Shown: one piece after another, positions 8,828 through 35,669 of the stretch
How positions within the stretch are numbered: the stretch's first letter is position 1
Layout of the letters: each line of letters begins with the position of its first letter
Assembly (NCBI RefSeq): GCF_018063565.1
Contig: NZ_JAGPBB010000020.1
Span: 1 to 49,818, forward strand
Source of the DNA: Rhodoferax sp.
Lineage (GTDB): Bacteria > Pseudomonadota > Gammaproteobacteria > Burkholderiales > Burkholderiaceae_C
Direction of reading: 5' to 3'
Length of the DNA stretch: 49,818 bases
Position numbers and translations under genes: made by a program
Notes under the pieces: model-generated
Database searches by the model: none
What the model saw: only the letters and a program-made list of their open reading frames with translations
What the model was told of the DNA's origin: nothing

Positions 8828-8866
8828 GCAATTTCCTGACGGTCATGGTCCATGGTCTTCTAAACC

Positions 8867-8927: not shown

Positions 8928-8937
8928 TACGTTGCGC

Positions 8938-10212: not shown

Positions 10213-10323
10213 GGGTACGACTCCAGAGTTGATGAAACCGATGTCGCTGGTGGTCTGGCACTGATGGGTGACAGGAGAAATGCAGCGATGGGTCAACTTT
10301 AGGTATCCTCAGCCATTTGTGAA

Positions 10324-10341
10324 ATACGCCGAGTGGCGTAT
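10324..10341. promoter_or_regulatory. 18-bp palindrome between divergent urtA and kinase genes, candidate operator
   Basis: ATACGCC (10324-10330), GAGT, GGCGTAT (10335-10341) is a perfect inverted repeat in the 176-bp region shared by urtA (minus) and the hybrid kinase (plus). Its ATAC-N10-GTAT form recalls LysR-type sites, but spacing differs from the classical T-N11-A, and no regulator gene lies nearby. It could control both directions. No convincing sigma-54 promoter was seen for urtA. Confidence 0.4.
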
Positions 10342-10388
10342 GCAGGTGGCTTGTTCAGTATCATGTACTGCCAGAAGCGGAGACATCC

Positions 10389-12371
10389 ATGCCAGATCCG
10401 AGATCCTCACCTAAGGCTTGCGCGGCGTCCAGCGCCGAGCACAATTTGGCGCTGTTCCAGGCGGTTTTCGACGAGATCCCCGACGTCATCGTCCTGAAAG
10501 ATGCACGCGGTGATTTCCTTTTGTGCAACCAGACCGTGGCACGGCTATATGGCACGACGCCGGAGGCCATGGTGGGCAAACACGACGACGATTTTGGTGT
10601 ACCCAAGGAAGTAGCCGATGGCTTTAGGGAAAACGTGCTGGGCATCATGGCACGCGGTCAGACGGAAGTGGTGTTCGAGAACAGTCTGGATGCAGCCACC
10701 GGAGAGTGGCGGCACTACAAATCGATCAAACGTCCGTTCAAGGATGCCAATGGCAACAACCAGATCCTGGTCATCGCGCATGACATCACCGATGTCGTCA
10801 AAGCCCAGCAAAAGGTGACCGAAAGCGAAAAGCGCCTGCGCGATGTCATGGCCGCGACACAAGAAGGCATCTGGGACTGGCAGGTCGACACCGGCATCGT
10901 CAGGCACAACGACCAGTGGTACCGGCTGTTGGGTTTTTCTGAGGGTGAAATTGCCGACAACGTCGCGGCGTTTTCCGCGCATGTGCACGCTGACGACCGG
11001 CAAATGGTGTGGCAGCGCATCCAGGCCCTGATGAGTGGCGCGACCGACACCTACCACTCAGAGCACCGCATGGTGCAAAAAGATGGCACGGTGATCTGGG
11101 TGCAAGATCGGGGTCGCATTGCCGAGCGCGACGCGCAGGGCCAGCCCGCGCGCGTGGTGGGGGCCTACGCCAATATCACCGACCGCAAGAAGCAACAAGC
11201 CGACCTGGAACAGGCGCTGAGTTCGGCGCAGGACGCCACCCGCGCCAAGAGCGACTTTTTGGCCACCATGAGCCATGAGCTGCGCACGCCGCTCAACGGC
11301 ATCCTGGGCATGGCGCAAATGCTGCAATTGCCGCAAGTCGACGAAGCAACCCGCCATGACTACGCCCGCACCATCTTGAATTCGGGGCAAAGCCTGCTGC
11401 GACTGCTCAACGACATTCTGGACCTCAGCAAGGTCGAAGCCGGCCGACTGGAGCTGGACCAAAGCGTGTTTGACCTCAAGCAACTGGTGGCCGACACCAC
11501 CTTGGCCTTTGAAGAACTGGCGCAAAGCAAGGGCTTGACGCTGGAGACCCGCTTTTGTCATTTGCGCAGCAGCCACTACAAGGGCGACCCGCTGCGACTG
11601 CGCCAGATGATCTCCAACTATCTTGGCAACGCCATCAAATTCACCCCTCAGGGCAAAGTCGAGCTTGAGGTCGGCGAAGTCAGCCTTGACGGCAAAACAC
11701 CTCAGCTTGAATTTTCTGTGAGCGACAGCGGCATTGGCATCGCGCCGGACAAGCAGGCGCTCCTGTTCAAGCCGTTCACCCAGGCCGACAGCTCGACCAC
11801 GCGACAGTTTGGTGGCACCGGGTTGGGCCTGTCAATCGTGGCACGACTCGCCGAACTGATGGGCGGCCAGGTCGGACTGGAAAGCGGTGTTGGCATTGGC
11901 TCACGCTTCTGGTTCCGGGTGGCCACCGAACCGCAGGCGAGCCCGCAAAGGCTGCCGGCCACAGCGGCCAGGCCGATCGACGCCACAGCGTTGACGGGGC
12001 GGATTCTGGTCGCCGAAGACAACCCGGTCAACCGGATGGTGGCCAAAGCGTTGCTGGAAAGCCAAAACCTGACCGCAGACTTTGTGGAAGACGGACAGGC
12101 CGCTGTCGACGCCGTGACTGGCGGGACCAATTACGATCTGATCCTGATGGATATCCTGATGCCCGTGATGGATGGCCTGCAGGCGACGCGCTGCATCCGC
12201 AACTGGGAAGCGGCGAACGGTTTGCAGCGGTGCGCCATCGTCGCGCTGACCGCCGGAGCGTTTGAAGATGACAAACAGCGCTGCGCAGAAGCAGGCATGG
12301 ACGACTTTCTGGCCAAACCGATCGAGCTGGCAAGCCTGGTCTCGTTGTTGTCCAACTGGCTTGCCGTTTAG
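10389..12371 (+). CDS. Cytosolic hybrid sensor kinase, PAS-PAS-HisKA-HATPase-REC
   Basis: 660 residues with no membrane segment. Two PAS domains (about 20-140 and 148-275; the second ends with the PAC-like GAYANITDRKKQ) precede HisKA with ATMSHELRTPLNG (His296), an ATPase domain with N box NYLGNAIKFT and G boxes DSGIGIA and FGGTGLGLS, and a receiver (about 538-658) with Asp588 in LILMDILMPVMDG and Lys in DFLAKPIEL. No HPt domain, so phosphate would have to pass to another protein. GGAGA 6 bp before ATG supports the start. First of four signalling genes on this strand, divergent from urtA. Its catalytic core closely resembles that of the kinase at 30017-32344. Confidence 0.9.
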   Translation: MPDPRSSPKACAASSAEHNLALFQAVFDEIPDVIVLKDARGDFLLCNQTVARLYGTTPEAMVGKHDDDFGVPKEVADGFRENVLGIMARGQTEVVFENSLDAATGEWRHYKSIKRPFKDANGNNQILVIAHDITDVVKAQQKVTESEKRLRDVMAATQEGIWDWQVDTGIVRHNDQWYRLLGFSEGEIADNVAAFSAHVHADDRQMVWQRIQALMSGATDTYHSEHRMVQKDGTVIWVQDRGRIAERDAQGQPARVVGAYANITDRKKQQADLEQALSSAQDATRAKSDFLATMSHELRTPLNGILGMAQMLQLPQVDEATRHDYARTILNSGQSLLRLLNDILDLSKVEAGRLELDQSVFDLKQLVADTTLAFEELAQSKGLTLETRFCHLRSSHYKGDPLRLRQMISNYLGNAIKFTPQGKVELEVGEVSLDGKTPQLEFSVSDSGIGIAPDKQALLFKPFTQADSSTTRQFGGTGLGLSIVARLAELMGGQVGLESGVGIGSRFWFRVATEPQASPQRLPATAARPIDATALTGRILVAEDNPVNRMVAKALLESQNLTADFVEDGQAAVDAVTGGTNYDLILMDILMPVMDGLQATRCIRNWEAANGLQRCAIVALTAGAFEDDKQRCAEAGMDDFLAKPIELASLVSLLSNWLAV

Positions 12372-12439
12372 GTGGCACGCTTGCGGCCCGTTTGCCACGC
12401 CACTTGATCGCGCCCGGACAGATCCACCAGCCCAGCGCC

Positions 12440-14329
<1,890 letters not shown>

Positions 14330-14374
14330 CATGGCGCGATCATGGTGTTAGAGTTATTTCCAGAGCCTTCCGCC

Positions 14375-17300
14375 ATGTCACCCAGCCATCTCCAGCGTTT
14401 GTCCATCAAGACCCGGGTCACCCTGTTCACGCTGGTGATCTTTCTGGCAAGTCTGTGGTCGCTGGCGTATTTGGCCTCCCGAATGTTGCGCGCAGACTTG
14501 GAACAAGTCTTCGGACAGCAGCAGTTCGCAACCGTGTCTTTGGTGGCCGCGCAGGTCAACCACGACTTTGAGATTCGCAGCAAGGCCCTTGAGAAAATGG
14601 CAGCAACATCTGCTGCTGCCCTTCAAGCCGGCTCTGCTGCGATGCAGACTCTGCTGGAGCAGAACGTCACACTGGCGGACTTATTCAACTTTGGCGTATT
14701 GGCCTACGGCGCCGACGGCACCGCCATTGCCGATGTGCCCCGTAACACCGGGCGGATTGGCGTGAACTACCTGGACAACCCGACCGTGATTGCCGCATTG
14801 AGGGAAGGGAAATCAACGCTCAGTGAGGTCCACCTTGGTAAAGTCTTGCGTGCGCCGGTGTTTGGGATGACCGTGCCGATTCGCGACACCCATGGACAGG
14901 TCATTGGCGCCTTGTCGGGCGTCATTGACTTGGGCAAGCCCAGTTTTCTGGACAATGTTTTTACCAATCGATACGGCGAGGCTGGTGGATATTTGCTGGT
15001 TGCACCCAGACAACGTCTGATTGTCGCGGCCACAGACAAGTCACGCATCATGGAGCAACTGCCACCGAAAGGCTTCAATGCAACGCTTGACCGTTTTATC
15101 GAGGGTCAAGACGGGTCAGCCATTTTTGTCAATCCGCGCCAGGTGGAGGTGATGGTCTCCGACAAACATATGCCCGATGTCGGTTGGATCGTGGCTGCCG
15201 TATTGCCCACCAGTGAGGCCTTTGCACCCATTCGCGCCATGCAACAGCGCCTGCTGCTGGCCACTTTGCTGTTGACCGTTTTGGCCGGTACCCTGACTTG
15301 GTGGATGCTGCGTCGCCAACTCGCGCCGATGCTCGATACAGTGCAGATGCTGCTGAGCCTGGCCGACAGCAATGAAACGCCGCAAGCGCTTCCGGTGCGA
15401 CGCCCGGACGAACTGGGTCACTTGGTGGACGGCTTCAACCGCTTGCTGCAAACACTCGCGCTGCGCGAATCTGCTCTGAAAGAAAGCTCCAGACACTATC
15501 GTCAGCTGGTTACGGATCTTCAGGTTGGTGTGGTGATTCAATCGCCCAGCTCGGAGATCGTAATGAGCAACCAGCTGGCGCTGGAGCTACTCGGTCTGAG
15601 TGAAGACCAGCTGTTGGGAAGAACCTCGATGGACCCCGGCTGGGACGTGATTCATGAGGACGGCTCGCCCTTCCCCGGCCCGACCCACCCGGTATCTCAA
15701 GCCATCTCGACCCTAAAGGCCATTGAAAATGTGGTGATGGGGGTATTCAGACCCACCAAACAAAACAGAGTCTGGCTGCTGGTCACGGCCAAGCCACAGT
15801 TCCACCCCGATGGCAGCCTGCATCAAGTGGTGGTCACCTTCAGCGACATCAGCAAGCGCAAGCAGGCTGAAGCCGCCCTGGCCAAGAGCGAGGCTTTCAA
15901 GAACACCATCCTGGATTCACTCACCGCCGAAATCGCCGTGGTAGACAGCCAGGGCATCATTCAAGCCGTTAACGAAAGCTGGCAACGCTTCTTGCTTGAC
16001 AACTCAGCTGGCCCAGGGTCCGCGATGCCGCTGATCGGTGTTGGCGCCAATTACCTGACGGCCTGCCGTTCCCAAAACAAGGCGCATGCCAGCAGTAGCC
16101 TGGAGGCCAGCACGGGCATTCAGGCGGTGCTTGGTGGTCGTCTTCCTCACTTCAACCTGGAATACCCGTGCGACTCGCCGAAGCAAAAGCGCTGGTTTGC
16201 CATGACGGTGGTGCCCCTTGGCCAGAATGTTCGCGACGGTGCGGTCATTTCACACACCGACATCACCAAATTGAAGCAGGCCACACAAGATGAACATCTT
16301 CGCAATCACATTCTTGAGCTGCTGGCAAGCGATCAAACCCTTTTGACGATTCTTGAACAATTGGTTCTGGGTGTTGAGAAACTGCAATCCAGTGCCTATT
16401 GCAGCATCCTGTTGCTCAGCGATGATGGGCGTTACCTCGAACACGGAATCGGTCCAAGCCTGCCTGCAACCTACAACGCCGCGCTGGAAGGCATAGAAAT
16501 CGGCATGGGCGTCGGGTCGTGCGGCACAGCAGCGTTCACAGGTGAGAGAGTAGTGGTTGAAGACATCTCCACTCATCCGTACTGGGCGCCGTATCTGGAC
16601 CTGGCCCGCAACGCCGGATTGGGCTCATGCTGGTCGCAACCGATTTTGGCTGCCAGCGGCCAGGTGCTGGGCACGTTCGCCATCTACCACCCTACACCCC
16701 ATTCACCCGAAGTGTCCGACATCGCACGAATCGAACAGTCGGCGCGACTGGCCAGCATTGCCATCGAGAAAAGCAGATGGTTGCAATTGCTCCGCGACAG
16801 CGAAGTACGGTTTCGCAGCATGATGGAAGACGTCGCCGGCGTGGCGGTACAAGGCTACGCGATGGACGGCACCATCACCTTCTGGAACCGTGCCTCTGAA
16901 CGGCTGTACGGCTTCAGCGCCCAGGATGCCATCGGCAGCAACTTGCTTGACTTGATCATTCCTGTCGAAATGCGCGAGGGAGTTGCCGCCGCGATGGCTG
17001 AGATGGCCACAACTGGCGTGGCCATTCCAGCCGGTGAATTGACGCTCCAAACTCGCGGTGGCGGTCGGGTTCAGGTTTTTTCCAACCATGTGCTGGTCAA
17101 GCCCGCAATGGGTGCTGTCGAAATGTTCTGCCTCGACATTGACCTGACAGAGCGAAAAGAGATGGAAGACCAGGTGCGACAGCTGGCCTTTTTTGACCCC
17201 CTGACCAAGCTGCCAAACCGTCGGGTGCTGGATGACCGGCTCAAACTGACCATGGCCAGCAGCAGTCGTACCGGCCGCTACGGCGCCTTGATCTTTCTTG

Positions 17301-17740
17301 ATCTCGATAATTTCAAACCACTCAACGACAGCCACGGTCACGATGCCGGTGACCTGCTGCTGATCGAGGTGGCGCGGCGACTCACTGCCTGCGTGCGGGA
17401 GATGGACACGGTGGTCCGCATGGGCGGTGACGAGTTCGTCGTCATGCTCGGTGAGCTCAAGACTGAACGCCATGAATCACATACACAGGCGGGCGTGATT
17501 GCCGAGAAAATTCGCATGGCACTCGCCCAGGCCTACACGCTCACCGTACGCCGCGAGGGTTTGCCAGAGATCACGGTGCAACACCATTGCTCTGCCAGCC
17601 TGGGTGTCGCACTCTTTGTCAACCACGAGAACAGTCAGGCGGACATATTGAAATGGGCTGATGCCGCCATGTACGCGGCCAAAGATGCTGGTCGCAACCG
17701 CGTACGGTTCCACGCCCCGGAAGGTACACCCGCAGCATGA
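14375..17740 (+). CDS. Diguanylate cyclase with dCache, HAMP, PAS, GAF and GGDEF domains
   Basis: 1121 residues. A first membrane helix (about 12-33), a large periplasmic dCache-like domain (about 35-290), a second helix (about 290-313) and HAMP (about 315-365) are followed by two PAS domains (375-500, 505-640), a GAF domain (645-800, YCSILLLSDDGRYLEHGIG), another PAS (808-930) and GGDEF (935-1110). The active motif MGGDEF is intact (1017-1021) and the allosteric I-site RxxD (REMD) lies five residues before it, so product inhibition by c-di-GMP is expected. No EAL domain. The start follows the kinase stop by 45 bp, and the stop overlaps the next gene by 4 bp. Confidence 0.92.
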   Translation: MSPSHLQRLSIKTRVTLFTLVIFLASLWSLAYLASRMLRADLEQVFGQQQFATVSLVAAQVNHDFEIRSKALEKMAATSAAALQAGSAAMQTLLEQNVTLADLFNFGVLAYGADGTAIADVPRNTGRIGVNYLDNPTVIAALREGKSTLSEVHLGKVLRAPVFGMTVPIRDTHGQVIGALSGVIDLGKPSFLDNVFTNRYGEAGGYLLVAPRQRLIVAATDKSRIMEQLPPKGFNATLDRFIEGQDGSAIFVNPRQVEVMVSDKHMPDVGWIVAAVLPTSEAFAPIRAMQQRLLLATLLLTVLAGTLTWWMLRRQLAPMLDTVQMLLSLADSNETPQALPVRRPDELGHLVDGFNRLLQTLALRESALKESSRHYRQLVTDLQVGVVIQSPSSEIVMSNQLALELLGLSEDQLLGRTSMDPGWDVIHEDGSPFPGPTHPVSQAISTLKAIENVVMGVFRPTKQNRVWLLVTAKPQFHPDGSLHQVVVTFSDISKRKQAEAALAKSEAFKNTILDSLTAEIAVVDSQGIIQAVNESWQRFLLDNSAGPGSAMPLIGVGANYLTACRSQNKAHASSSLEASTGIQAVLGGRLPHFNLEYPCDSPKQKRWFAMTVVPLGQNVRDGAVISHTDITKLKQATQDEHLRNHILELLASDQTLLTILEQLVLGVEKLQSSAYCSILLLSDDGRYLEHGIGPSLPATYNAALEGIEIGMGVGSCGTAAFTGERVVVEDISTHPYWAPYLDLARNAGLGSCWSQPILAASGQVLGTFAIYHPTPHSPEVSDIARIEQSARLASIAIEKSRWLQLLRDSEVRFRSMMEDVAGVAVQGYAMDGTITFWNRASERLYGFSAQDAIGSNLLDLIIPVEMREGVAAAMAEMATTGVAIPAGELTLQTRGGGRVQVFSNHVLVKPAMGAVEMFCLDIDLTERKEMEDQVRQLAFFDPLTKLPNRRVLDDRLKLTMASSSRTGRYGALIFLDLDNFKPLNDSHGHDAGDLLLIEVARRLTACVREMDTVVRMGGDEFVVMLGELKTERHESHTQAGVIAEKIRMALAQAYTLTVRREGLPEITVQHHCSASLGVALFVNHENSQADILKWADAAMYAAKDAGRNRVRFHAPEGTPAA

Positions 17741-20700
17741 GCCGACCCGACGCTGCGTCTCCATCCATCCAGACTGCACCAACCTTGAGCTGGGGCATTG
17801 GCGCTGTGCTGACCACTTTGTCGCTGTTGTTGCTGCTGCCGTTGCTGGTTTTCTTGCTGTGGAGCGTCAGGGACGAAGCCAAGCGCATCCAGAGCCGCAC
17901 CGAATCCGTGGCCATGAGTCTGGCGCAGATTTCAGCCCATACGCTGGAGCGCAAGCTCAGTGACACCCAGCACTTCTTGGCCACGATGTCGGCCCGCGCC
18001 AGTGTTCGCGCGCTCGACAGCGCCCGCTGCGACCCGGTTTTTGGTGATTTTCAGAAGTCGCACCCCGGCTTCACCGTGTTGACCACATCGACGCTGGACG
18101 GTCAACTCATTTGCGGTGTGGTCGGTGCTGCCGCCGATCGCCCTCGACTGTCAGCACCGCTGACCTCCGGCCCCGCCAGCGGGGCACCGCAGTTTCAACT
18201 GGGACACGCACAAAAGGGGACAATCTCCGGACGCTGGGTCATGCCCATCAGCCTGCCGCTGTTGGACGACAGCGGCGCCCCACGCGGTGCCATTGCCGCC
18301 TGGATTGATCTGACACGGCTGAGCCCGCTCAATGAAAGTGCCCTGAACCGCATGCCCAAGGACACCGTCAGCACGGTATTTGACGACGATGGTGTCATTC
18401 TGGCCCGCTCGCGCGATGCCAACAAAATGGTTGGAGAAAATCGCAGCGGCTTCCCCCAGGCCACGCAGGCGCTCCAACAACGTCAGGGCTTCTTCCAGAC
18501 CACTTCACAAACCGACGGCATCCATCGTCTCTACGCTGTGGTGCCGGTGGAGGGCACCCGCTGGATCGTGTCGATGGGCATCCCCACCACTGCCATGGAT
18601 GCAGAACTGGCGCTGGCCCGGCAGCAGAATTTCGCGCTGTTTGGCGGCCCTGTGCTCTTCACCGGACTGATGCTTTGGCTGGTACGACGCTATACGGTGC
18701 GCCCAATACAGATTGGTGCAGCTGTGACACAGGCGGTCAAGGAGGGTGACCTGCAGCGCCGCATTCCACTGGAATCCGTCGGTCATCTCAGTGAATTGAA
18801 AAGCATCGCCATCGGCTTCAATGCCATGCTCGACACCCTGGTCGATGAACGGGTCCGACTGACACAAAGCGAGGCAGATTTTCGCACCCTGTTCACTGAA
18901 ATGCGCAGTGGTTTTGCCGTGCATGAGCTGATTTTTGACACTGCAGGGGTAGCCGTTGACTACCGCTTTCTCGCGGTCAACCCGGCGTTTGAGGCCATGA
19001 CCGGTCTGCGCGCCAGTACCTTGATTGGCAAACGGGTGCTCGAGGTGCTGACCACGCTGGAGCCCATCTGGATTGAGCGCTATGGCCGTGTCACATTGAC
19101 CGGCGAGCCAGCGGCGTTTGAGGACTACAGCGCCGAATTGAAAAAGTATTTTGACGTGCGCGCTTTTCGCATTCGCCCCGGACAATTTGCCGTGATGACA
19201 CTTGACATCACCGATCGCCGCTTGGCGGAGAATGCGCTGGCCCGTGAACGTGCCCTGTTACGCCGGGTGATGGACAGTATTCCGGACCTGATTTTCTTCA
19301 AGGACATCAACGGACATTATCTCGGCTGCAACAAGGCATTTGAAGCGTTTGCCGGGCGTGACGAGCAGGCGCAGGTGGGCAGAACCGACTTCGATTTTTT
19401 TGACGCCAAGACCGCCAGCTTTTTTCGCGAGCAAGACCAGAAAATGCTGCAGAGTGGTGAGGCGCGTCAGAACGAAGAGTGGGTGACTTACCCCGACAGC
19501 CGGCAGGTGCTGCTGCAAACCATCAAGACACCGTTCAGCATCATGCAGGGCGAGTCAATCGGCATCCTGGGCATTAGCCGCGACATCACAGCGCAGCATC
19601 TGGCGCAGATCGAGATCAAAGCCAGCAACCAGACTTACCAGGCCATTCTTGCCACGGCACTTGATGGCTTCTGGATAGCCGACCTGCAGGGCCAGTTGCA
19701 CGAGGTAAATGACGCCTATATTGCGATGTCAGGCTTTTCGCGCGAAGAATTGCTACAGAAACATGTTTCCGATCTGGATATACAGGACCCACCCGATGTT
19801 GCCCGTCGCCGTCTTGAACGCATCAAGCTGATCGGCAGCGACCTGTTTGAGACCCGGCATCGGCGCAAAGGCGGCGAACTGTGGGATGCAGAGGTCAGCA
19901 CCAACTACTGGGCCGAGCAAGACCGGCTCTTCATCTTTATCCGTGACATCAGCGCACGAAAACAGGCCGAAGGCCAGTTGCAACAAGCGGCTGCCGTGTT
20001 TGAGAACACCCAGGAAGGCATGATGGTGACCGACACACAGGACATCATCGTGCGGATCAACCCGGCCTTCACCATTCTGACTGGGTTCAGTGCCGAAGAC
20101 GCCATTGGCAAAACGCCGTCGATTCTGAACTCACCGCAACAGGATGCATCGCTATTTGTCATGATGCGAAAGTCCCTGGCGCGAAGCGGCCAATGGAAGG
20201 GTGAAATCATCAATCGCCGCAAAGACGGCACGGATTTTTCGCAGTGGATGACGATTTCATCGATTCTGGACTCGGCAGGCGAAGTTAGCCACTACGTGTC
20301 AACCTTCACTGACATCTCGCAGCTTAAGGATGCCCAGGCCAAGATTCACAACCTGGCTTTCTTCGATCCGCTGACCCAGTTGCCCAATCGCCGGCTGATG
20401 CTGGACCGCCTGCACCGCTCGGTAGCGCTATGCGCCAGACGCAAGAGTTGTGGCGCTGTGCTTCTGATTGATTTGGATAATTTCAAGCTGATCAACGACA
20501 CCGAAGGCCATGAAGTCGGCGACATGTTGCTGGTGGAGGTGGCACGCCGCCTTAAGAGCTGTGTGCGCGAGCAGGATAGTCTGGCGCACCAGGGTGGAGA
20601 TGAATTCATCATCATCCTGGACGACCTGGGGCACGAACTCCACGAGGCGGCGAGTCGCGCTGAACTGGTGGCTGAAAAGATCATGCAGTCGCTGCGCGAG

Positions 20701-21648
20701 AGTTACCAACTTGGCTTGCTTGAACACCACAGTCAGGCCAGCATCGGTGTGGCCACCTTCCAGGATCCGACCGACAACGCCGAAGAAATACTCAAACGCG
20801 CCGATACGGCCATGTACCGCGCCAAAGCCGAAGGTCGCAATACCGTGCGTTTTTTTGACCCGGCCATGCAGGCTGCGCTGCAGCAACGCATCAAACTTGA
20901 AACTGAATTGCGTCACGCCCTACCGGGCAATGAACTCCAGCTCTATTACCAGGCGCAAGTCGATGGCGACGGCAAGGTGCTCAGCGCCGAGGTCCTGATC
21001 CGCTGGCAACATCCACAACGCGGGCTGGTGTCACCCGTACAGTTCATTCCGTTGGCCGAAGAGTCCGGCTTGATTTTGCCGATTGGGGCCTGGGTACTGG
21101 AAACCGCCTGCGCACAACTCAAGGCATGGGAAAACCACCCACTTGCCCGTGATCTGAAGCTGGCGGTTAACGTCAGTGCGCGCCAATTCCGGCAAGACGA
21201 TTTTGTATCGATAACCAAACATGTCGTTGATCAAAGCGGCATTGATCCCACTCGCCTGAAACTGGAGCTGACGGAAAGTATCGTCATCAACAACGTGGCG
21301 GACACGATCGAAAAGATGCATCAACTCAAAGTGCTGGGATTGACTTTTTCGATGGACGACTTTGGCACCGGTTACTCATCACTGGCCTACCTGAAACGTC
21401 TGCCGCTGGATCAGCTCAAGATCGACCAGTCGTTTGTACGAGACATCAGTCACGACCCCAGTGACGCCGCCATCGTGCAAACCATCATCACCATGGGCAA
21501 CACGCTGGGCTTGAACGTGATTGCGGAGGGTGTGGAAACCCAGGTACAGCTGGATTTTCTGCAGAAACACGGCTGCAAGACCTTCCAGGGCTATTTGTTC
21601 AGCCGCCCGGTGCCGCTCGCCGAGTTTGAGAAACTGTTGATTGCTTGA
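17737..21648 (+). CDS. Dual GGDEF-EAL protein with dCache, HAMP and four PAS domains
   Basis: 1303 residues, start overlapping the previous stop (ATGA). A membrane helix (about 18-45), periplasmic dCache-like domain (46-300), second helix (about 301-320) and HAMP (320-375) precede four PAS domains (about 385-500, 505-625, 628-745, 748-868), GGDEF (868-1040) and EAL (1055-1303). GGDEF is intact (QGGDEF, 953-957) with an I-site REQD five residues ahead. The EAL signature reads EVL (AEVLIRW, Glu1085) but other catalytic residues appear kept: NVSARQF, ELTES, MDDFGTGYSS, LKIDQSFV and IAEGVET. Both c-di-GMP synthesis and breakdown are therefore possible. Last gene of the four-gene run; it converges on the aldehyde dehydrogenase gene. 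Confidence 0.92.
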   Translation: MSRPDAASPSIQTAPTLSWGIGAVLTTLSLLLLLPLLVFLLWSVRDEAKRIQSRTESVAMSLAQISAHTLERKLSDTQHFLATMSARASVRALDSARCDPVFGDFQKSHPGFTVLTTSTLDGQLICGVVGAAADRPRLSAPLTSGPASGAPQFQLGHAQKGTISGRWVMPISLPLLDDSGAPRGAIAAWIDLTRLSPLNESALNRMPKDTVSTVFDDDGVILARSRDANKMVGENRSGFPQATQALQQRQGFFQTTSQTDGIHRLYAVVPVEGTRWIVSMGIPTTAMDAELALARQQNFALFGGPVLFTGLMLWLVRRYTVRPIQIGAAVTQAVKEGDLQRRIPLESVGHLSELKSIAIGFNAMLDTLVDERVRLTQSEADFRTLFTEMRSGFAVHELIFDTAGVAVDYRFLAVNPAFEAMTGLRASTLIGKRVLEVLTTLEPIWIERYGRVTLTGEPAAFEDYSAELKKYFDVRAFRIRPGQFAVMTLDITDRRLAENALARERALLRRVMDSIPDLIFFKDINGHYLGCNKAFEAFAGRDEQAQVGRTDFDFFDAKTASFFREQDQKMLQSGEARQNEEWVTYPDSRQVLLQTIKTPFSIMQGESIGILGISRDITAQHLAQIEIKASNQTYQAILATALDGFWIADLQGQLHEVNDAYIAMSGFSREELLQKHVSDLDIQDPPDVARRRLERIKLIGSDLFETRHRRKGGELWDAEVSTNYWAEQDRLFIFIRDISARKQAEGQLQQAAAVFENTQEGMMVTDTQDIIVRINPAFTILTGFSAEDAIGKTPSILNSPQQDASLFVMMRKSLARSGQWKGEIINRRKDGTDFSQWMTISSILDSAGEVSHYVSTFTDISQLKDAQAKIHNLAFFDPLTQLPNRRLMLDRLHRSVALCARRKSCGAVLLIDLDNFKLINDTEGHEVGDMLLVEVARRLKSCVREQDSLAHQGGDEFIIILDDLGHELHEAASRAELVAEKIMQSLRESYQLGLLEHHSQASIGVATFQDPTDNAEEILKRADTAMYRAKAEGRNTVRFFDPAMQAALQQRIKLETELRHALPGNELQLYYQAQVDGDGKVLSAEVLIRWQHPQRGLVSPVQFIPLAEESGLILPIGAWVLETACAQLKAWENHPLARDLKLAVNVSARQFRQDDFVSITKHVVDQSGIDPTRLKLELTESIVINNVADTIEKMHQLKVLGLTFSMDDFGTGYSSLAYLKRLPLDQLKIDQSFVRDISHDPSDAAIVQTIITMGNTLGLNVIAEGVETQVQLDFLQKHGCKTFQGYLFSRPVPLAEFEKLLIA

Positions 21649-29032: not shown

Positions 29033-30013
29033 ATGCGACTCTTTCGTTGGATTCCCACCCTGTTGATGGGTTTGGGTTTGATGGCTTGTGGCGAAGCCAG
29101 CGGACCCAGCGTCAAGACCGCGACGGTGCCTGCAGCGGCGGCATCCGCGCCATTGCCACAGACTGCGATCGGTCTGGTGATGAAAACGCTCACCAATCCG
29201 TTCTTTGTCGAAATGGAAAAGGGTGCCCGCCGTGCTGAAAAAGAGCTGGGCATCACCCTGACCGTCAAGACGGCAGCACAGGAAACCTCGATCGAGCAGC
29301 AAATCCAGCTGGTTGAAGACCTGATTTCGGCCCGGGTCAACGCCATTGTGATCGCCCCGGGTGACTCGCAGCGTCTGGTCCCAGCGCTAAAGAAAGCGGC
29401 TGATGCCGGCATCAGGATCATCAACATTGACAACCGACTCGATGCCAAGACGGTCGCGCAGGCAGGTTTGGCACCGGTGCCTTTTATCAGCGTTGACAAT
29501 GATGCGGGTGCCTTTAAAGCCGGGCAGTTTTTGGCCAGAGAAATCACCAAGCCCACGCAGGCAGCCATACTGGAGGGCATTCGCAGCGCTGACAATGCCC
29601 GGCAGCGTGCCCAGGGTGCGCTGCGCGGTTTGCAGGAGAACAAGGTCATCAAGGTGGTCGCCTCCGAAACGGCCAACTGGAAAATCGACGAGGCCTACAC
29701 GGTCACCAAGCAGATTTTTGCCAGGAACCCTGAGGTCAAACTGCTTTTTGCGTCAAACGATGTGATGGCCATTGGTGCCATCAAGTACCTCGCTGAAGCC
29801 CGGCGTCGCGATGTCAAGGTGGCCGGGTATGACGCGCTGAGCGAGGCGATCACTGAGATCAAGGCCGGTCGTATGGCGGCCACGGTTGACCAGCAAGCGG
29901 CAGAACAAGGTTACCAGGGCGTGGCTCTGGCCTTGCGTTTGACGCGGGGCGAGGCGGTCCCTGCGGTGACAACGATTGAGACACAACTGATTACGGCGGC
30001 CAATGCCCCCTGA
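29033..30013 (+). CDS. Sugar-binding-type periplasmic lipoprotein (RbsB/LuxP-like)
   Basis: 326 residues. A lipoprotein signal ends in the lipobox LMAC with Cys19; the next residue is Gly, so outer-membrane or periplasmic-facing anchoring is expected. The body is a Peripla_BP_4 (ribose-binding-like) fold: AIGLVMKTLTNPFFVEMEKG, RVNAIVIAPGDSQRLVPAL, IINIDNRLD, and the second-lobe VKLLFASNDVMAIGAI and VAGYDAL. GAGG 8 bp before the ATG at 29033 supports the start. The kinase gene begins 3 bp after its stop, and no transporter permease or ATPase is adjacent. It probably presents a ligand to the kinase rather than to an importer. Confidence 0.9.
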   Translation: MRLFRWIPTLLMGLGLMACGEASGPSVKTATVPAAAASAPLPQTAIGLVMKTLTNPFFVEMEKGARRAEKELGITLTVKTAAQETSIEQQIQLVEDLISARVNAIVIAPGDSQRLVPALKKAADAGIRIINIDNRLDAKTVAQAGLAPVPFISVDNDAGAFKAGQFLAREITKPTQAAILEGIRSADNARQRAQGALRGLQENKVIKVVASETANWKIDEAYTVTKQIFARNPEVKLLFASNDVMAIGAIKYLAEARRRDVKVAGYDALSEAITEIKAGRMAATVDQQAAEQGYQGVALALRLTRGEAVPAVTTIETQLITAANAP

Positions 30014-30016
30014 GTC

Positions 30017-32344
30017 GTGAAGTGGCGTTCTGACATCACGGCAAAGCTGCTGGCATTCTTGCTGGTGGCTGGGGTACTGCCCCTGATCCTGTTGGGAGTC
30101 TCGGCCTTTGAGTATTCCAAGCGCGTCATCATTGAGCAGGCCGAGTTGGAAAACGCCCGCTTGCTGGCAAGTCTGGCGTCGTACCTGAAGCTATACCAGG
30201 AACAGATCGAAGACCTGGCGGCCAACATCGCGGGCAACACCAGCATTGGTGCGACCTTGCATCATGCGAGTACGCAGACCGCCAATAGCTTTGATTCTCT
30301 TGAAACCAAGGCACAGATGGGATATGCCCTGAACAACTATGTGCGCGTCAAGGGCCTGGTGTCGATCAACGTCTTTGCGCGCAGCGGTGCCCGCTTTCAG
30401 GTGGGTGAATCGCTGGATGTCAGCGATGTTGACCCGGCGCTGGTCGCGCAGTTACTACATGAAGCCAGTCAGACACGCGCGCCGGTGCTGTGGCGTGGGG
30501 TGGGTGACAATCTCAATACGCGTTCCAAACACGCCAAAGTCGTCAACGTCCTGCGCACCATCCTGCATTTTTCGCCTGAAACCGGGCAATCTGATGTCGT
30601 GGGGGTACTGGTCATCAGCCTCAACAACGACATCATGCGCGGTTTTCTGGATGCGGCACCGCTGCCCGATGGCACACAGCTGCTCGAGCTCGACCACCAT
30701 GGTCGCATTGCGCTGCATTCGGAAGATCAACGGGTGGGTCGGCCGATGTTGCCTGCCATGCTGCAATTGATTGGCGCACAGCCTCCGGTTCGCCAGTTGG
30801 TGCTTGGTGGCGAAGACATGCTCATGCGGGTCTCCTCCATCAACCAGCGACAAAGCCAGCTGGTGGTGCTGTCTCCAAGACGCACACTCACTGAAAAGGT
30901 CAACCAGCTGGCGCTGCTCACCACCGGACTGGTGGCACTGGCGCTGATATGCACATTGGCGCTGGCATGGTACTTTGCCCGCACAGTCGTACGCCCGATC
31001 GGCGCCGTATCACAGGGCTTCCGGCAAATCGCCTTCGCCCCACAGGCACAACATCTGCCATTGCCCACTGGCGCGGCACCCGACGAGATCGCCCGTCTGA
31101 TTCACGGCTACAACAACCACCTCAGTGCGCTGCAAACACAGGCAGCCGCTGCCGAGGAACTGCGCCTGGCCAAAACCGCCGCAGAGTCGGCCAACGTGGC
31201 AAAAAGCCGCTTTCTGGCCACCATGTCACACGAAATTCGCACCCCGATGAACGGCATTCTGGGTATGGCGCAAATGCTGCTCGCGCCAAACCTGACGACC
31301 AAAGAACGGGAGCACTATGTCAACACCATCCTGTCGTCGGGTCAGACGCTGTTGACCCTGTTGAACGACATCCTGGACATCTCCAAGATCGAAGCGGACA
31401 AAATCCATCTTGAGGCGGTACTGACCGATCCGGTGCAACTGTTGAGCGATGTTCAGGCTCTGTTCGCCAATCAAGCCAATGCCAAACAGTTGCGGCTGGA
31501 ACAACAATGGCACGGGCCGGTGGGGCAACACTACCTGCTCGATGCCCACCGGCTGCGCCAGATGCTCTCCAACCTGACCGGGAATGGCATCAAGTTCACC
31601 GAGACCGGTTCGGTACGCATCGAGGGCCGAGAACTACGCCGCGACGCCGAGCAGGCAGATCTTGAGTTTTCCGTGACCGACACAGGGCTCGGCATTGCCC
31701 CCGACCAGCAGGCGCTGCTGTTTCAGCCCTTTTCCCAAGCCGACAGTTCCACAACGCGACGCTTTGGTGGCTCGGGCCTGGGCCTGTCCATTGTGCGAAG
31801 CCTTGCACATCTGATGCACGGTGACGTGGGTGTCAGCAGCGCTTCAGGGCAAGGCTCGCGCTTCTGGTTTCGCATCCGGGTCACCTGCTCTTCCGAGTGC
31901 CTGGCGCAAACACCACCTGCCGCCCATCGGGTGGCGACCGCGTCGCCGGTCGACCGACCCGTTGGTGGACGGGTGCTGGTGGCCGAGGACAACCTGGTCA
32001 ATGGTATGGTGATCGAAGCACTGCTGAAACAGCTGGGTCTCGATGTGCAGCTGGTGACTGACGGCCAACAGGCCGTTGATGTGCTCACCAGCGGGGAGAT
32101 TCCGGATGTCATCCTGATGGACATCCAGATGCCGGTGTTGGATGGCTACGCGGCGACCGAGCATATCCGCCAATGGGAAGAGCGACATGACCGGCCACGT
32201 ACACCCATCATTGCACTCACTGCGGATGCATTCGAGGAAGACCGGCAACATTGTTTTGCCGTTGGGATGGACGCCTTTCTGACCAAACCGGTGGCGATGG
32301 AAGCATTGCGCGCAGCGTTGAGCCCGTGGGTCACCCCGGCCTGA
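30017..32344 (+). CDS. Hybrid sensor kinase with periplasmic dCache-like domain, LuxQ-like layout
   Basis: 775 residues from a GTG start 3 bp after the lipoprotein stop. Membrane helix (about 9-30), periplasmic sensor domain (31-290), second helix (296-320) and HAMP (318-372) precede HisKA with [13 protein letters not shown] (His405), ATPase with NLTGNGIKFT, DTGLGIA and FGGSGLGLS, and a receiver with Asp702 in VILMDIQMPVLDG and FLTKPV. The binding protein and kinase form a tight pair as in LuxP-LuxQ. No HPt or response regulator is in the neighbourhood. The catalytic core closely parallels the kinase at 10389-12371, suggesting a duplication. Confidence 0.9.
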   Translation: MKWRSDITAKLLAFLLVAGVLPLILLGVSAFEYSKRVIIEQAELENARLLASLASYLKLYQEQIEDLAANIAGNTSIGATLHHASTQTANSFDSLETKAQMGYALNNYVRVKGLVSINVFARSGARFQVGESLDVSDVDPALVAQLLHEASQTRAPVLWRGVGDNLNTRSKHAKVVNVLRTILHFSPETGQSDVVGVLVISLNNDIMRGFLDAAPLPDGTQLLELDHHGRIALHSEDQRVGRPMLPAMLQLIGAQPPVRQLVLGGEDMLMRVSSINQRQSQLVVLSPRRTLTEKVNQLALLTTGLVALALICTLALAWYFARTVVRPIGAVSQGFRQIAFAPQAQHLPLPTGAAPDEIARLIHGYNNHLSALQTQAAAAEELRLAKTAAESANVAKSRFLATMSHEIRTPMNGILGMAQMLLAPNLTTKEREHYVNTILSSGQTLLTLLNDILDISKIEADKIHLEAVLTDPVQLLSDVQALFANQANAKQLRLEQQWHGPVGQHYLLDAHRLRQMLSNLTGNGIKFTETGSVRIEGRELRRDAEQADLEFSVTDTGLGIAPDQQALLFQPFSQADSSTTRRFGGSGLGLSIVRSLAHLMHGDVGVSSASGQGSRFWFRIRVTCSSECLAQTPPAAHRVATASPVDRPVGGRVLVAEDNLVNGMVIEALLKQLGLDVQLVTDGQQAVDVLTSGEIPDVILMDIQMPVLDGYAATEHIRQWEERHDRPRTPIIALTADAFEEDRQHCFAVGMDAFLTKPVAMEALRAALSPWVTPA

Positions 32345-32380: not shown

Positions 32381-32854
32381 TCAGCGTTGCCAGAAGTTCA
32401 GGTGCGGTGCCATCAGCTCTTCGCCCAACTCGGCAAACGGCCCGCTGACCCTGATGGCTTTCTGACCCCTGGCAAACAGCTCCCGGCACGGAAGATTGAG
32501 GGTCGGGTTATCGGCTGCATTTCCGGTAAGGGCCAGCAACTGCTCTTCTGCCGCGCCATAGACCAGGTGGCCGATGTTGGCCCAATACAGGGTACCCGCA
32601 CACATGGCACAGGGCTCGAAGCTGGTCACCAAGGTGCATTCCCAGAGATAGTCGCGGCTGTAATTGAGCGACACCGTGCGTGCGAGAGTGGCCTCGGCAT
32701 GGTGCACGGTATCAATGTTGCCCTGCTCGGCCAGTACGGTTTCACCGTCGGGGGCGACCAACAATGCACCAAACGGGTGCCTTCCAAGGCTCGCTGCACG
32801 CAGGGCAACGTCATTGGCACGACGCAGGTGGCGCAGGCATTGCTCGGTATTCAT
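32381..32854 (-). CDS. Zinc-dependent nucleoside/base deaminase (cytidine-deaminase superfamily)
   Basis: 157 residues with the zinc site of the superfamily: HAE (VHHAEATLA; His ligand and catalytic Glu) and PCxxC (FEPCAMCAGTLYW). LGRHPFGALLVAPDG is typical of GuaD/TadA-like deaminases. Start ATG 32854 follows AAAGGAC; an in-frame TTG at 32884 would overlap the permease stop as TTGA and add ten residues, and cannot be excluded. As the last gene of the ABC importer operon it may act on the imported compound, for example a purine or pyrimidine base. Confidence 0.85.
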   Translation of the reverse strand: MNTEQCLRHLRRANDVALRAASLGRHPFGALLVAPDGETVLAEQGNIDTVHHAEATLARTVSLNYSRDYLWECTLVTSFEPCAMCAGTLYWANIGHLVYGAAEEQLLALTGNAADNPTLNLPCRELFARGQKAIRVSGPFAELGEELMAPHLNFWQR

Positions 32855-32880
32855 GGCATGAGTGTCCTTTGACAGGGAGG

Positions 32881-33651
32881 TCAATGGTTGTTCGAACCAC
32901 GGTGCGCCCAGGCCGTGGTGTGTTTCTCGATGGCAGAAAACAGCTCATACATACCCATCGCCATCGCGCCCACCACCACCAGGCCGGCAAACGCCAACCC
33001 CATTTGCATCGATGAGCCGGCGGAAATCAACAGGTAGCCGATGCCCTCGTTGGCCGCTGTCATTTCGCTGACCGTGGTGCCGACAAACGCCAGCGTGATG
33101 GCGACTTTGAGCGAGCCGTAAAAATACGGCATGGAGCGTGGCAGACCCACCTTGACCAAAACGTCCCAGCGCTTGGCACCCAGCACCCGCAATACGTCTT
33201 CCAGCTCAGGCTCCAAGGTTGCCAATCCCGTGGCAATGTTCACCATGATTGGGAAAAAACTGATGAGAAACGCCGTCAGAATGGCCGGACCCACGCCAAT
33301 GCCAAACCACACCACCAGAATAGGCACAAACGCCGCCTTGGGCAAGGCGTTAAACGCCGTCATCACCGGGTACACCGCCGCGTAGGCCAGGCGCGAGCTG
33401 CCGATGACAAAACCCAGCAGCACGCCGACCACAATCGCCAGCGCAAAACCCACCATCGTCACCCAGAAGGTGCGCCACGCGTGGCCGGCAATGTTGTCAC
33501 GAAACTCCCAGAACTGCGTCCAGATGCGCCACGGGCTGGGGAAAATGAACTCTGACACCTCAAACGCCGAACACAGGATCTGCCAGATGGCAATGATGGC
33601 GATCAGCAGCAACCACGGTGACCACAGGATGACCTGATTTCGTTTCAGCAT
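32881..33651 (-). CDS. ABC importer permease, NitT/TauT type
   Basis: 256 residues, six predicted helices, of the SsuC/TauC/ThiX permease family. FIFPSPWRIWTQFWE near the N-terminus and the EAA loop (ATLEPELEDVLRVLGAKRWDVL...GLPRSMPYF) are characteristic. It sits between the ATPase gene (11 bp upstream) and the deaminase gene. The substrate cannot be set from the permease alone. Confidence 0.92.
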   Translation of the reverse strand: MLKRNQVILWSPWLLLIAIIAIWQILCSAFEVSEFIFPSPWRIWTQFWEFRDNIAGHAWRTFWVTMVGFALAIVVGVLLGFVIGSSRLAYAAVYPVMTAFNALPKAAFVPILVVWFGIGVGPAILTAFLISFFPIMVNIATGLATLEPELEDVLRVLGAKRWDVLVKVGLPRSMPYFYGSLKVAITLAFVGTTVSEMTAANEGIGYLLISAGSSMQMGLAFAGLVVVGAMAMGMYELFSAIEKHTTAWAHRGSNNH

Positions 33652-33662
33652 GACGCAAACCC

Positions 33663-34490
33663 TTACTGGTTGATCACTGCACCGGCCTGGCGCATGGCGC
33701 CAATGTGGCCGCGCAGTTCGTGCACGATATTGGTGAATGCGGGCGTGTAAGTGATCTCCAGGTCCCGCGGGCGTGGCAGGTCAATCTCACGGCGCACCAC
33801 AAAACGACCGGGGCTCTTGCTCATCACGTACACCGTGTCGGCCAGGAAAACGCTTTCACGCAGGTCGTGTGTGACCAGAATGACGTTGAATTTCTGCTCG
33901 GTCCACAGGTCACGCAGAATGCACCACAGCTCTTCGCGGGTGAAGGCGTCGAGTGCGCCAAAGGGTTCGTCCAACAACAGCATCTTGGGTTCGTGGATCA
34001 GGGCGCGGCAAATACTCGCGCGCTGCTGCATGCCACCCGACAGTTGCCAGGGGAACTTGTCCTCGTAACCACCCAGCCCCACCTTTTGCAGCAGCTTGCG
34101 GGCACGCTCTTCGTACTGACGGCGATGGGTTTTGAAGTTGCTGCGGTAGGGCTCCACAATTTCCAGCGGTAACAACACGTTGTCGACGGTGGTGCGCCAC
34201 GGCAGCAGGCTCGGTGCCTGAAACGCCATGCCGGATATTTTGAGGGGACCGGTGACCGGCTGCTGGTCGATCAGAATCTTGCCCATGGAGGGCATCTTCA
34301 GCCCGGTGGTGAGCTTCATGAAGGTGGACTTGCCGCAGCCCGACGGCCCGACGATGGCAATGAACTCGCCCTGGCGCACCTTCAGGTCGATGGCCTCCAC
34401 GGCAAACTGATTGGCAACCAGCAACTCTTCGTTATAGGCCAGCCATACGTCGCGAAAATCAACAAACCAGGGCGTGTCGTCGTGCATCAT
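33663..34490 (-). CDS. ABC importer ATP-binding protein, NitT/TauT type
   Basis: 275 residues. Walker A GPSGCGKST, signature LSGGMQQRASICRAL, Walker B MLLLDEPFGALD and switch His in ILVTHDLRESVFLAD are all intact. The start MMHDDTPW at 34490 is chosen; the frame continues upstream through a repeat (34508-34545) to 34628 without family similarity. The repeat lies in the 85-bp gap between this gene and the binding-protein gene. Confidence 0.92.
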   Translation of the reverse strand: MMHDDTPWFVDFRDVWLAYNEELLVANQFAVEAIDLKVRQGEFIAIVGPSGCGKSTFMKLTTGLKMPSMGKILIDQQPVTGPLKISGMAFQAPSLLPWRTTVDNVLLPLEIVEPYRSNFKTHRRQYEERARKLLQKVGLGGYEDKFPWQLSGGMQQRASICRALIHEPKMLLLDEPFGALDAFTREELWCILRDLWTEQKFNVILVTHDLRESVFLADTVYVMSKSPGRFVVRREIDLPRPRDLEITYTPAFTNIVHELRGHIGAMRQAGAVINQ

Positions 34491-34507
34491 TTGTCCATAA
34501 AAACAGG

Positions 34508-34545
34508 CTCCAGCGCATATGAATAGAGCTTTATCAGCTATCAAA
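34508..34545. repeat. Degenerate interspersed repeat between two ABC transporter genes
   Basis: CTCCAGCGCATATG (34508-34521) and AGCTATCAAA (34536-34545) have the order and spacing of the interspersed element at 25926 but the palindrome is decayed. It lies in the gap between the solute-binding gene and its ATPase gene. Confidence 0.45.
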
Positions 34546-34575
34546 GATTGAGCTTTTGCCGACTTCCTGTTGCGC

Positions 34576-35604
34576 TCATTTCTTGGGCAATACGTCCAGC
34601 TCGGCCTTGGAGGGCAGGAAAGCGCCATTCCACACGGCGTCGGCGTCGACCCGGTTCTTGGTGTTGAAAGCGTCAGACACCTGGCTGGCCATCAGCGACA
34701 GGCGTGGACCATTCACCTGACCAAAACCCTCGCTGCGGGCATTGGCACTGTTGATGACGGTGTCGATGGCCAGTTTCAGGCGACGGGTTTCAAGCTCAAC
34801 ATTGACAATGCCGTCGCGTGCTTTGACATCCGCAATGGCCGCTGCCGGATCGGCAATCACCAGTTTGGCGCCTTTGGCGAAAGCCGCCAGAAAGGCCTTC
34901 ACGGCCGCCGGGTTGTCCTTGATCATCTTCGGGCTGGCGATGATCACATTGCCGTAGAGCTTGACGCCATAACTGGGGTACGGCAACACCACCACATCGG
35001 CCGCTTTGATACCCCGCGCCTCGAGATTGAGCAGTGAGGTGAAGGTAAAGCCGGTGATCGCGTCGACATCACCGCGCACCAGCATGGTCTCGCGCAGCGG
35101 CGGGTCCATCGCGGTCCAGTTCACACCGCTGATGTTGTTGGCTTTGGAGAAGATCGGAAACGCCCGACGACCAGCATCAAACACCGGCGCACCGAGTTTC
35201 TTGCCATTCAGATCGGCCGGCGTCTTGATGCCGGACTTCTTCAGCGCCATCACCGAGGCCGGTGTGTCGTTGTAGACCATCATCACCGCCACCGGCTTGT
35301 TGGGTGCATCGGGGTTATTGGCGTGAAACTCCATCAGCGCGGCCAGATCGGCAAAACCCATGTCGTAAGCCCCCGAGGCCACGCGCGTCACCGTGCCACC
35401 CGAACCATTGCCGGCGTCCACCGTCACATCGAGTTTGGCATCCTTGAAATAGCCTTTGGCCACAGGGGTCAAGAACAGCGCACTGGGTCCCTCAAAACGC
35501 CAGTCAAGCTGGAACTTGATGGGTGTGGTTTGTGCCTGGACGGCTCCCATCAGCGTAAGGGCGATGGCAGCGACCGATGTCTTGAGCAGATGACGTTTGT
35601 TCAT
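34576..35604 (-). CDS. ABC importer solute-binding protein, NMT1/THI5-like
   Basis: 342 residues with a Sec signal peptide (MNKRHLLKTSVAAIALTLMG, then AVQAQ). The mature part starts IKFQLDWRFEGPSALFLTP, typical of NMT1/THI5-like binding proteins of the nitrate/taurine/thiamine-precursor group, and continues SGAYDMGFADLAALMEF. Such proteins bind sulfonates, pyrimidines or aromatic compounds; with a base deaminase in the same operon, a heterocyclic base or thiamine-pyrimidine-like ligand is my guess. First gene of the four-gene operon. ATG 35604 is preferred over an upstream in-frame ATG because the signal peptide starts there. Confidence 0.9.
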   Translation of the reverse strand: MNKRHLLKTSVAAIALTLMGAVQAQTTPIKFQLDWRFEGPSALFLTPVAKGYFKDAKLDVTVDAGNGSGGTVTRVASGAYDMGFADLAALMEFHANNPDAPNKPVAVMMVYNDTPASVMALKKSGIKTPADLNGKKLGAPVFDAGRRAFPIFSKANNISGVNWTAMDPPLRETMLVRGDVDAITGFTFTSLLNLEARGIKAADVVVLPYPSYGVKLYGNVIIASPKMIKDNPAAVKAFLAAFAKGAKLVIADPAAAIADVKARDGIVNVELETRRLKLAIDTVINSANARSEGFGQVNGPRLSLMASQVSDAFNTKNRVDADAVWNGAFLPSKAELDVLPKK

Positions 35605-35669
35605 GGTAATGGCTTTGCAAATGAGGAAATTGGACACAAGTTACCCCAAAGCAAAAACAATGCCTGAAA

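Follow-up and report, generated by a model that had tools for sequence, protein, structure and literature searches.

Does a sugar-binding protein whose gene immediately precedes that of a hybrid histidine kinase serve an importer, or does it report its ligand to the kinase? This question is raised by positions 29033 to 32344 of a 49,818-nucleotide stretch of Rhodoferax sp. DNA (contig NZ_JAGPBB010000020.1; this whole stretch is hereafter called the window), which encode a predicted lipoprotein of the sugar-binding type and a kinase with a large periplasmic sensor domain. An earlier note on this DNA proposed that the lipoprotein reports a ligand to the kinase, in the manner of the autoinducer 2 (AI-2) receptor LuxP-LuxQ. 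Our findings favor the first part of this proposal, in that the anchored binding protein appears to be dedicated to a dCache sensor with which it is paired in 68 of 68 related loci, and they disfavor the identity with LuxP-LuxQ. We consider it likely that the pair is a dedicated sugar receptor and that part of its relatives feed cyclic di-GMP (c-di-GMP) signalling. The features of the pair are as follows, with the basis of each assignment given in brackets.

29033..30013, + strand: lipoprotein sugar-binding protein (Peripla_BP_4), 326 amino acids from ATG (open reading frame list, Pfam)
29078..29089, + strand: lipobox LMAC, with lipidated Cys19 and Gly as the +2 residue (sequence)
29168..29953, + strand: ligand-binding domain, with pocket residues K51, N55, F57, F58, D133, N134, R192, W216, N242, D267 and Q287 (Pfam, alignment columns)
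30017..32344, + strand: dCache-HAMP hybrid histidine kinase with receiver, GTG start, 775 amino acids (open reading frame list, Pfam, NCBIfam)
30044..30106, + strand: transmembrane helix 1, residues ~10-30 (hydrophobic stretch in model helix 7-72, limits by eye)
30113..30877, + strand: periplasmic dCache sensor domain, residues ~33-287 (AlphaFold2, Foldseek, dCache_1 in relatives)
30899..30970, + strand: transmembrane helix 2, residues ~295-318 (hydrophobic stretch in model helix 288-340, limits by eye)
30974..31117, + strand: HAMP linker, residues 320-367 (Pfam)
31199..31396, + strand: HisKA (Pfam)
31541..31882, + strand: HATPase_c (Pfam)
31973..32320, + strand: receiver domain (Pfam)

The open reading frames and Pfam matches bear out the layout originally described, namely a binding protein with the lipobox LMAC followed 3 nucleotides later by a kinase with a GTG start. 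The binding-protein gene ends with TGA (30011-30013), after which GTC and then the kinase GTG at 30017 follow in the same frame. An in-frame TTG at 29003 would lengthen the binding protein by 10 amino acids. A structured 5' leader of the pair was looked for and none was found (z -0.15).

A collection scan with the binding protein yielded 73 loci, 68 of which were kept at ~48% identity or more; those left out were a locus whose binding protein is cut by a contig end (L105), two importers (L104 and L108) and two loci at 23-24% identity that are LacI-like by eye (L109 and L110). The same sensor domain is present in the locus of 68 of the 68 relatives, and this recurrence, found by the genome search for the same two-gene pair that the earlier note had suggested, places the pairing beyond chance. 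The arrangement varies in some loci: the sensor kinase lies upstream of the binding protein in L087 and L103 (Elainella), an intergenic gap of several hundred bases is present in L044, L053, L093 and L095, and the sensor kinase of L038 is broken over two frames. Near copies (L009, L011, L012 and L014) were omitted from trees and alignments.

Searches at wider taxonomic levels give a similar result from both sides of the pair. At the family level, 60 of 399 genomes have a match to the binding protein at E 1e-30, and these matches form two classes, comprising 8 at 57-100% identity (that of the genome under study included) and a remainder at 32-42%. A sensor adjoins the binding protein in 7 of the 8 members of the high-identity class, while the 22 transport-type loci that were fetched (37-42% identity) carry an ABC (ATP-binding cassette) ATPase beside 21 of the binding proteins and a sensor beside none. 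When 369 genomes of the class were searched with the sensor, 5 strong matches of at least 382 bits were obtained (own genome included), each with a binding protein beside it; weaker matches of 58-90 bits, covering HAMP and the membrane-proximal half, occurred in another 13 genomes, none with an adjoining binding protein. An order-level sensor search of 399 genomes added 2 strong matches, both with an adjoining binding protein, and a phylum-level search of 398 genomes matched the own genome alone. Overall, a binding protein is present with 7 of 7 strong sensor matches (at least 373 bits, the next best in the class search being 90). Adjacency fails only in G334, a metagenome-assembled genome (MAG) that is 86% complete, where the partners are unlinked yet both present: the binding protein lies on contig C172 with no sensor within 16 kb, and the sole strong sensor lies on contig C261 with no binding protein within 14 kb.

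The pair was found in Pseudomonadota, Chloroflexota, Bacillota, Cyanobacteriota and perhaps other phyla. Distances between binding proteins and distances between their sensors are correlated (r 0.77 for 66 pairs and 0.82-0.86 in three subsets), and 0 of 2000 shuffles gave a value as high. As a separate observation, L070 (an Aeromicrobium MAG) groups with a Pseudomonadota row, contrary to its phylum label, and three Pseudomonadota rows (L077, L092 and L097) are placed with weak support among Chloroflexota; such mismatches may reflect transfer, a weak tree or binning errors.

The binding protein matches Peripla_BP_4 over residues 46-307 (Pfam, E 9e-59), and no other Pfam family except Peripla_BP_1 and Peripla_BP_3 was detected in it at 1e-3. 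Its N-terminus reads MRLFRWIPTLLMGLGLMAC/GEASG, where the slash stands directly after the lipobox LMAC. Among sensor-type binding proteins, a lipobox was recognized in 74 of 77 by script and in 2 more by eye (L013 and L099), versus 0 of 22 transport-type proteins, a contrast that is clean but narrow because all 22 come from one bacterial family. In the sets compared, the lipid anchor therefore separates sensing from importing relatives, which suggests a sequence rule for signalling binding proteins. In single-membrane lineages, binding proteins are usually lipoproteins. Two further proteins are of interest with regard to the anchor: L104 (a Gemmatimonadetes MAG), a 39% relative with an adjoining permease and ATPase, carries a lipobox and is a possible intermediate between importing and sensing, and the G334 binding protein has an N-terminal hydrophobic stretch and no lipobox cysteine, such that a transmembrane anchor perhaps replaces the lipid.

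The NCBIfam ranking of the binding protein is led by the D-allose model (177 bits, cut-off 335), followed by RbsB (154), TorT (46) and LsrB (41), and the equivalog cut-offs of the allose and ribose binding-protein models are not reached. Its closest solved relatives are PDB entries 5dte (E 7e-57), 4yle and 2ioy, the first of which we take to be a D-allose complex. The protein was aligned with 67 relatives and compared at 15 positions that, by our presumed list and numbering, form the RbsB pocket. Twelve of these (K51, N55, F57, F58, A108, D133, N134, R192, W216, N242, D267 and Q287) are common to both classes, being kept in 97-100% of 66 sensor-type rows and in 22 of 22 transport-type rows. 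Five pocket positions (51, 108, 134, 154 and 216) are unlike those of E. coli RbsB, and ribose is therefore not a given. Outside the pocket, columns that distinguish the classes occur in helix 1, around 86-89, and at 220, 252 and 294. From these columns, we read the sensor-type and transport-type proteins as probably sharing one ligand type and differing in an altered surface, which could be the kinase interface.

On the kinase side, HisKA, HATPase_c and Response_reg are above the Pfam cut-offs as had been claimed, whereas HAMP is weaker than claimed and falls under its cut-off in this protein (E 6e-4, 20.5 bits versus 25). With matches up to E 10 admitted, HAMP is seen in 55 of 66 aligned sensors, the window kinase included, and dCache_1 in 63 of 66 (best E 5.5e-18; only E 0.034 in the window kinase itself). 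No PDB sequence matched the N-terminal part of the kinase at E <1, the one match being at 1.7. An AlphaFold2 model built from the 66 aligned sensors (predicted local distance difference test score, pLDDT, 89.3; predicted template modelling score, pTM, 0.78) has a dCache fold, in which a long N-terminal helix carries two Cache modules. Among the 50 Foldseek matches listed, out of 117 with E 0.001 or better, most are chemoreceptor dCache domains, and others are a diguanylate cyclase (7k5n), DctB and rpHK1S. The model, these matches and the presence of dCache_1 in relatives thus agree with the previous description of the sensor as dCache-like. Where the sensor profile aligns with solved dCache sequences, it does so chiefly over the membrane-proximal half; one weak match, 7w0w, covers 62-237 (E 0.018). 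The membrane-distal half may be adapted to the binding protein.

A docked arrangement was modelled with the relative L053, whose binding protein and sensor were read through the stops so that the 258-nucleotide gap became a long loose linker; the alignment held 22 other in-frame pairs (window pair included) and 30 single rows. The joined AlphaFold2 model spans 740 residues, with a pLDDT of 88.5 and a pTM of 0.78; its linker is disordered, and it has no mispaired control. For domains free to move relative to each other, we estimate from their sizes that the pTM would be ~0.5, and an interface is therefore probable. The model thus suggests that the binding protein docks on the dCache sensor. The absence of any predicted interface, which had been named as evidence that would speak against a receptor pair, was not what was observed, to the extent that this uncontrolled model of a relative can be taken to place the domains confidently.

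If the binding protein instead served an importer, a permease would be expected to accompany it, and the earlier note had named consistent co-occurrence with one as an outcome that would count against signalling. No RbsC-type permease was found in the 68 pair loci, for which up to 6 kb of flanking sequence was covered (in many cases less because of contig ends), although ABC ATPases of other kinds occur in 8 of them. The lipoprotein has both the Peripla_BP_4 fold and the sugar pocket of a carbohydrate uptake transporter 2 (CUT2) binding protein (Pfam; 12 of 15 positions), and the linked RbsA/RbsC-type ATPase and permease of such transporters were not encountered at the pair loci. At E 1e-20, no RbsC-type permease is present in 6 of 20 pair-bearing genomes, Rhodoferax antarcticus among them (several of the assemblies are MAGs), but the other 14 do have one. 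In the own genome, 16 of 17 BPD_transp_2 matches are read as LivHM pairs from their pairing, and the single RbsC-type permease adjoins another binding protein and a PfkB-like gene (named by eye). An importer on another contig is thus made less plausible both by this permease having its own binding protein and by the six permease-free genomes. We conclude that the binding protein probably serves signalling and is not part of an importer.

The statement in the earlier note that no ABC permease or ATPase is adjacent does not hold, since a set of importer genes begins ~0.5 kb downstream of the kinase, on the opposite strand and behind a deaminase gene:

32381-32884, between the kinase and the permease and in line with the NMT1-type importer: cytidine-deaminase-like gene
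32881-33651, minus strand: ABC permease
33663-34628, minus strand: ABC ATPase
34576-35637, minus strand: NMT1-type binding protein

This set is a separate importer of a different class from the lipoprotein. It was set aside as a partner because it lies on the other strand, has its own NMT1-type binding protein, and its ATPase, used as a query, matches only 8 of the 68 pair loci (31-84 bits), none with an RbsC-type permease. Together with the deaminase gene (32381-35637), it perhaps serves pyrimidine or thiamine-precursor uptake. Elsewhere in the window (5221-21648), a second cluster combines a binding protein with c-di-GMP genes. Its Peripla_BP_5 protein of the urea/amide type (8941-10296, minus strand) is accompanied by a BPD_transp_2 permease and an ABC ATPase (5221-8818) and lies back to back with two hybrid kinases (10389-14329), beyond which are two dCache proteins, one with a terminal GGDEF (14342-17740) and one with a terminal GGDEF-EAL (17737-21648).

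While the input half of the pair is constant, its output is not. The sensor protein is a kinase in 54 of 66 pairs, a fused c-di-GMP enzyme in 11 and unclassed in 1, and the output class (kinase versus c-di-GMP enzyme) changes 6 times on the tree. Output types include hybrid kinases with or without HPt, HWE-type kinases, GGDEF-EAL or GGDEF-HD-GYP fusions, and a hybrid kinase whose next gene is of the REC-PAS-GGDEF-EAL type. The next gene in the 54 kinase-type loci, 45 of which have at least 1.5 kb available downstream, encodes GGDEF, EAL or HD-GYP in 10 cases and another receiver, kinase or HPt in 12, with none of these in 32. By Pfam, REC-PAS-GGDEF is present in five of the neighbouring genes, three of which also have EAL; L045 and L058 have HK-REC-HPt (histidine kinase, receiver and HPt), L099 has GGDEF-HD, and locus L101 includes a REC-SpoIIE gene.

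For the window kinase, a candidate partner that we put forward with low confidence is encoded on contig C78 of the own genome, unlinked to the pair. This REC-PAS-PAS-GGDEF-EAL protein is 53% identical in its REC-PAS part to the regulator encoded directly after the kinase of Rhodoferax antarcticus, the best of 130 own-genome matches, and the kinase beside it, which has receiver and PAS domains, is 59% identical to the window kinase over HK-REC. Four orthologous kinases, at 58-61%, are about as close. The REC-PAS match and the HK-REC match of the neighbouring kinase are the reasons for naming this protein.

We propose that the two genes would encode one receptor. The lipid-anchored, allose/ribose-type protein would catch a small sugar outside the inner membrane, as its fold and pocket indicate, and once loaded would dock on the dCache domain of its neighbour, as suggested by the constant pairing and the joined structure model. 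Docking would alter the dCache-HAMP-HisKA transmitter, and, by the established logic of hybrid kinases, phosphate would pass to the kinase's own receiver and then to a partner. The binding protein and sensor would be kept together across relatives while the output is exchanged, and the likely effect of the sugar would be a change in c-di-GMP and hence in surface or motile behaviour.

Several alternatives to a dedicated receptor were weighed. It is unlikely, in our judgement, that the lipoprotein belongs to an importer and also signals, feeding an unlinked CUT2 permease and ATPase while informing the kinase of import. ChvE-VirA exemplifies an importer binding protein with this double role. BctC-BctE is a further parallel (PMC9602780), most pocket columns of the lipoprotein are identical to those of 22 importer-type relatives, and the permease in 14 of 20 genomes is compatible with such sharing. 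This explanation has difficulty with the 6 genomes that have no such permease, with its absence beside the pair in 68 loci, with the separate binding protein of the only RbsC-type permease in the own genome, and with the lack of a lipobox in 22 of 22 importer-type relatives. Direct sensing of an amino acid or AI-2 by the dCache domain itself, with the binding protein only modulating or co-sensing, appears quite improbable. Such domains can bind small ligands directly, AI-2 included (PMC7584622); however, a pocket pattern of R.W and then Y.D, a regular expression that we derived from residues named in that source, is present in 0 of 66 sensors. In addition, the resemblance of the sensor profile to solved dCache sequences resides mainly in the membrane-proximal half, and a binding protein is present in 7 of 7 genomes found from the sensor side.

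Very doubtful, too, is an outer-membrane location for the lipoprotein, which would then reach the kinase across the periplasm and make the pair a reporter of envelope spacing as well. In E. coli, the classic signal for the inner membrane is Asp at +2. Of 74 lipoboxes, 45 have Gly at this position, as the window protein does, and only 6 have Asp; moreover, a tail of ~25 residues precedes the folded domain. Gly at +2 can, however, also retain a lipoprotein in E. coli. Since members of Bacillota and Chloroflexota, many of which have a single membrane, also carry this pair, the arrangement must work with one membrane. Most improbable of all is a true LuxPQ-type quorum receptor, in which the lipoprotein would bind AI-2 and the kinase would report to a LuxU/LuxO-like relay. 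The two-part plan is the same, with a ribose-type binding protein and a hybrid kinase that has a two-domain sensor and one receiver, and the LuxQ model aligns over the transmitter. Yet this alignment reaches 325.4 bits of a 1200-bit cut-off and spans residues 378-769 only, LuxQ is absent from 20 PDB profile matches and from the Foldseek matches listed (50 of 117), and the binding protein scores 41 bits with LsrB versus 177 with the allose model. A search for LuxS, whose control was positive in 5 of 14 genomes, E. coli included, gave no match in any of 20 pair-bearing genomes, which makes AI-2 an unlikely ligand. The LuxU-like HPt whose presence the earlier note had suggested checking was not seen, at least not as a LuxU-sized protein, since 19 HPt matches in the own genome all lie in stop-to-stop frames of at least 334 codons; LuxO was not searched for. 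Eavesdropping on foreign AI-2 may occur.

A number of observations weigh against a dedicated sugar receptor of the kind we favor. The collection scan is weighted toward close relatives of the query, and the sensors behind the sensor profile were themselves located via binding proteins, such that sensors without a binding protein were possibly missed. Genetic linkage by itself would produce the agreement of trees and distances, and the tree was built quickly and leaves 26 of 63 inner branches open, with many forks weakly supported. The joined model depicts a relative, L053, with an artificial read-through linker and no mispaired control. Binding proteins without a lipobox exist (L096, and the unlinked protein of G334), and the binding protein may be shared with an importer in the 14 of 20 pair genomes that contain an RbsC-type permease (E 1e-20). 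Not all of the pocket is common to the two classes, given that position 154 is V in sensor-type and P in transport-type proteins, 183 is I versus V, and 266 is variable among the former (Y in 59%) and Y in 22 of 22 of the latter. Finally, no c-di-GMP gene adjoins the window kinase. The same holds for 44 of the 54 kinase-type loci (contig ends truncate some of these), and this scarcity makes the c-di-GMP step the weakest.

Because one binding protein and one sensor persist across phyla while the output class changes, the input half appears to be a defined, portable unit, and the pair is probably a general plug-in sensor that recurs in distant bacteria wired to different outputs. The near-identity of the pocket across sensor-type members suggests that one ligand could be the signal for dozens of kinases and c-di-GMP enzymes. 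We tentatively raise, as a rather unlikely extension, a cross-phylum family of surface receptors with a near-invariant sugar pocket, one dCache sensor and freely swapped outputs. If true, the shared ligand may be an extracellular cue of wide occurrence, perhaps serving as a signal rather than as a nutrient, that unrelated bacteria translate into c-di-GMP or phosphorelay decisions.

How does the pair compare with known systems? A literature search that fell short of most subscription journals and preprints found no publication on this exact pair. TorT-TorS is a Peripla_BP-type protein without an importer that reports to a hybrid kinase, as proposed here, and TorS is the best NCBIfam match of the transmitter (371.1 bits of a 676.5-bit cut-off, residues 380-769 only); the TorT model likewise stays below its cut-off (46.3 bits of 200). 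AlsB and RbsB (PDB 5dte, 4yle and 2ioy) have the same fold and much of the same pocket, and they differ from the lipoprotein in that the latter has a lipid anchor, no permease or ATPase partner, sensor-specific columns and scores below the equivalog cut-offs. LuxP-LuxQ consists of a ribose-type binding protein and a hybrid kinase with a two-domain periplasmic sensor and a receiver, and has no importer. These are the elements shared with our pair (PMC7584622), which differs in its lipid anchor, its sensor matching dCache_1, its allose/ribose-type binding protein and an output that varies among relatives.

NspS is a binding protein of the PotD kind, and the host of XylFII is Gram-positive. In NspS-MbaA, a binding protein drives a membrane c-di-GMP enzyme, as may occur in the GGDEF-EAL relatives described here; NspS binds polyamines (PMC5646818 and PMC9993111), whereas the present protein is of the Peripla_BP_4 sugar type, not a PotD-kind polyamine binding protein, and most of its relatives use kinases. 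XylFII-LytS and GlnH-GlnX are likewise binding proteins signalling to membrane receptors, but come from Gram-positive lineages, and the LytS and GlnX sensors are four-helix bundles (PMC9769921), in contrast to the dCache domain here. The same source describes GlnH of Corynebacterium as a signalling binding protein shown to be a lipoprotein, such that the lipid anchor, regarded in the earlier note as a variant of the LuxPQ theme, is supported by our analysis but is not unique to this pair. Binding proteins that activate kinases, cyclases and chemoreceptors form an accepted class, with ~10 characterised kinase cases (PMC9602780). The proposed mechanism is thus of a known kind, and what is new is its cross-phylum, output-swapping, lipid-anchored dCache version.

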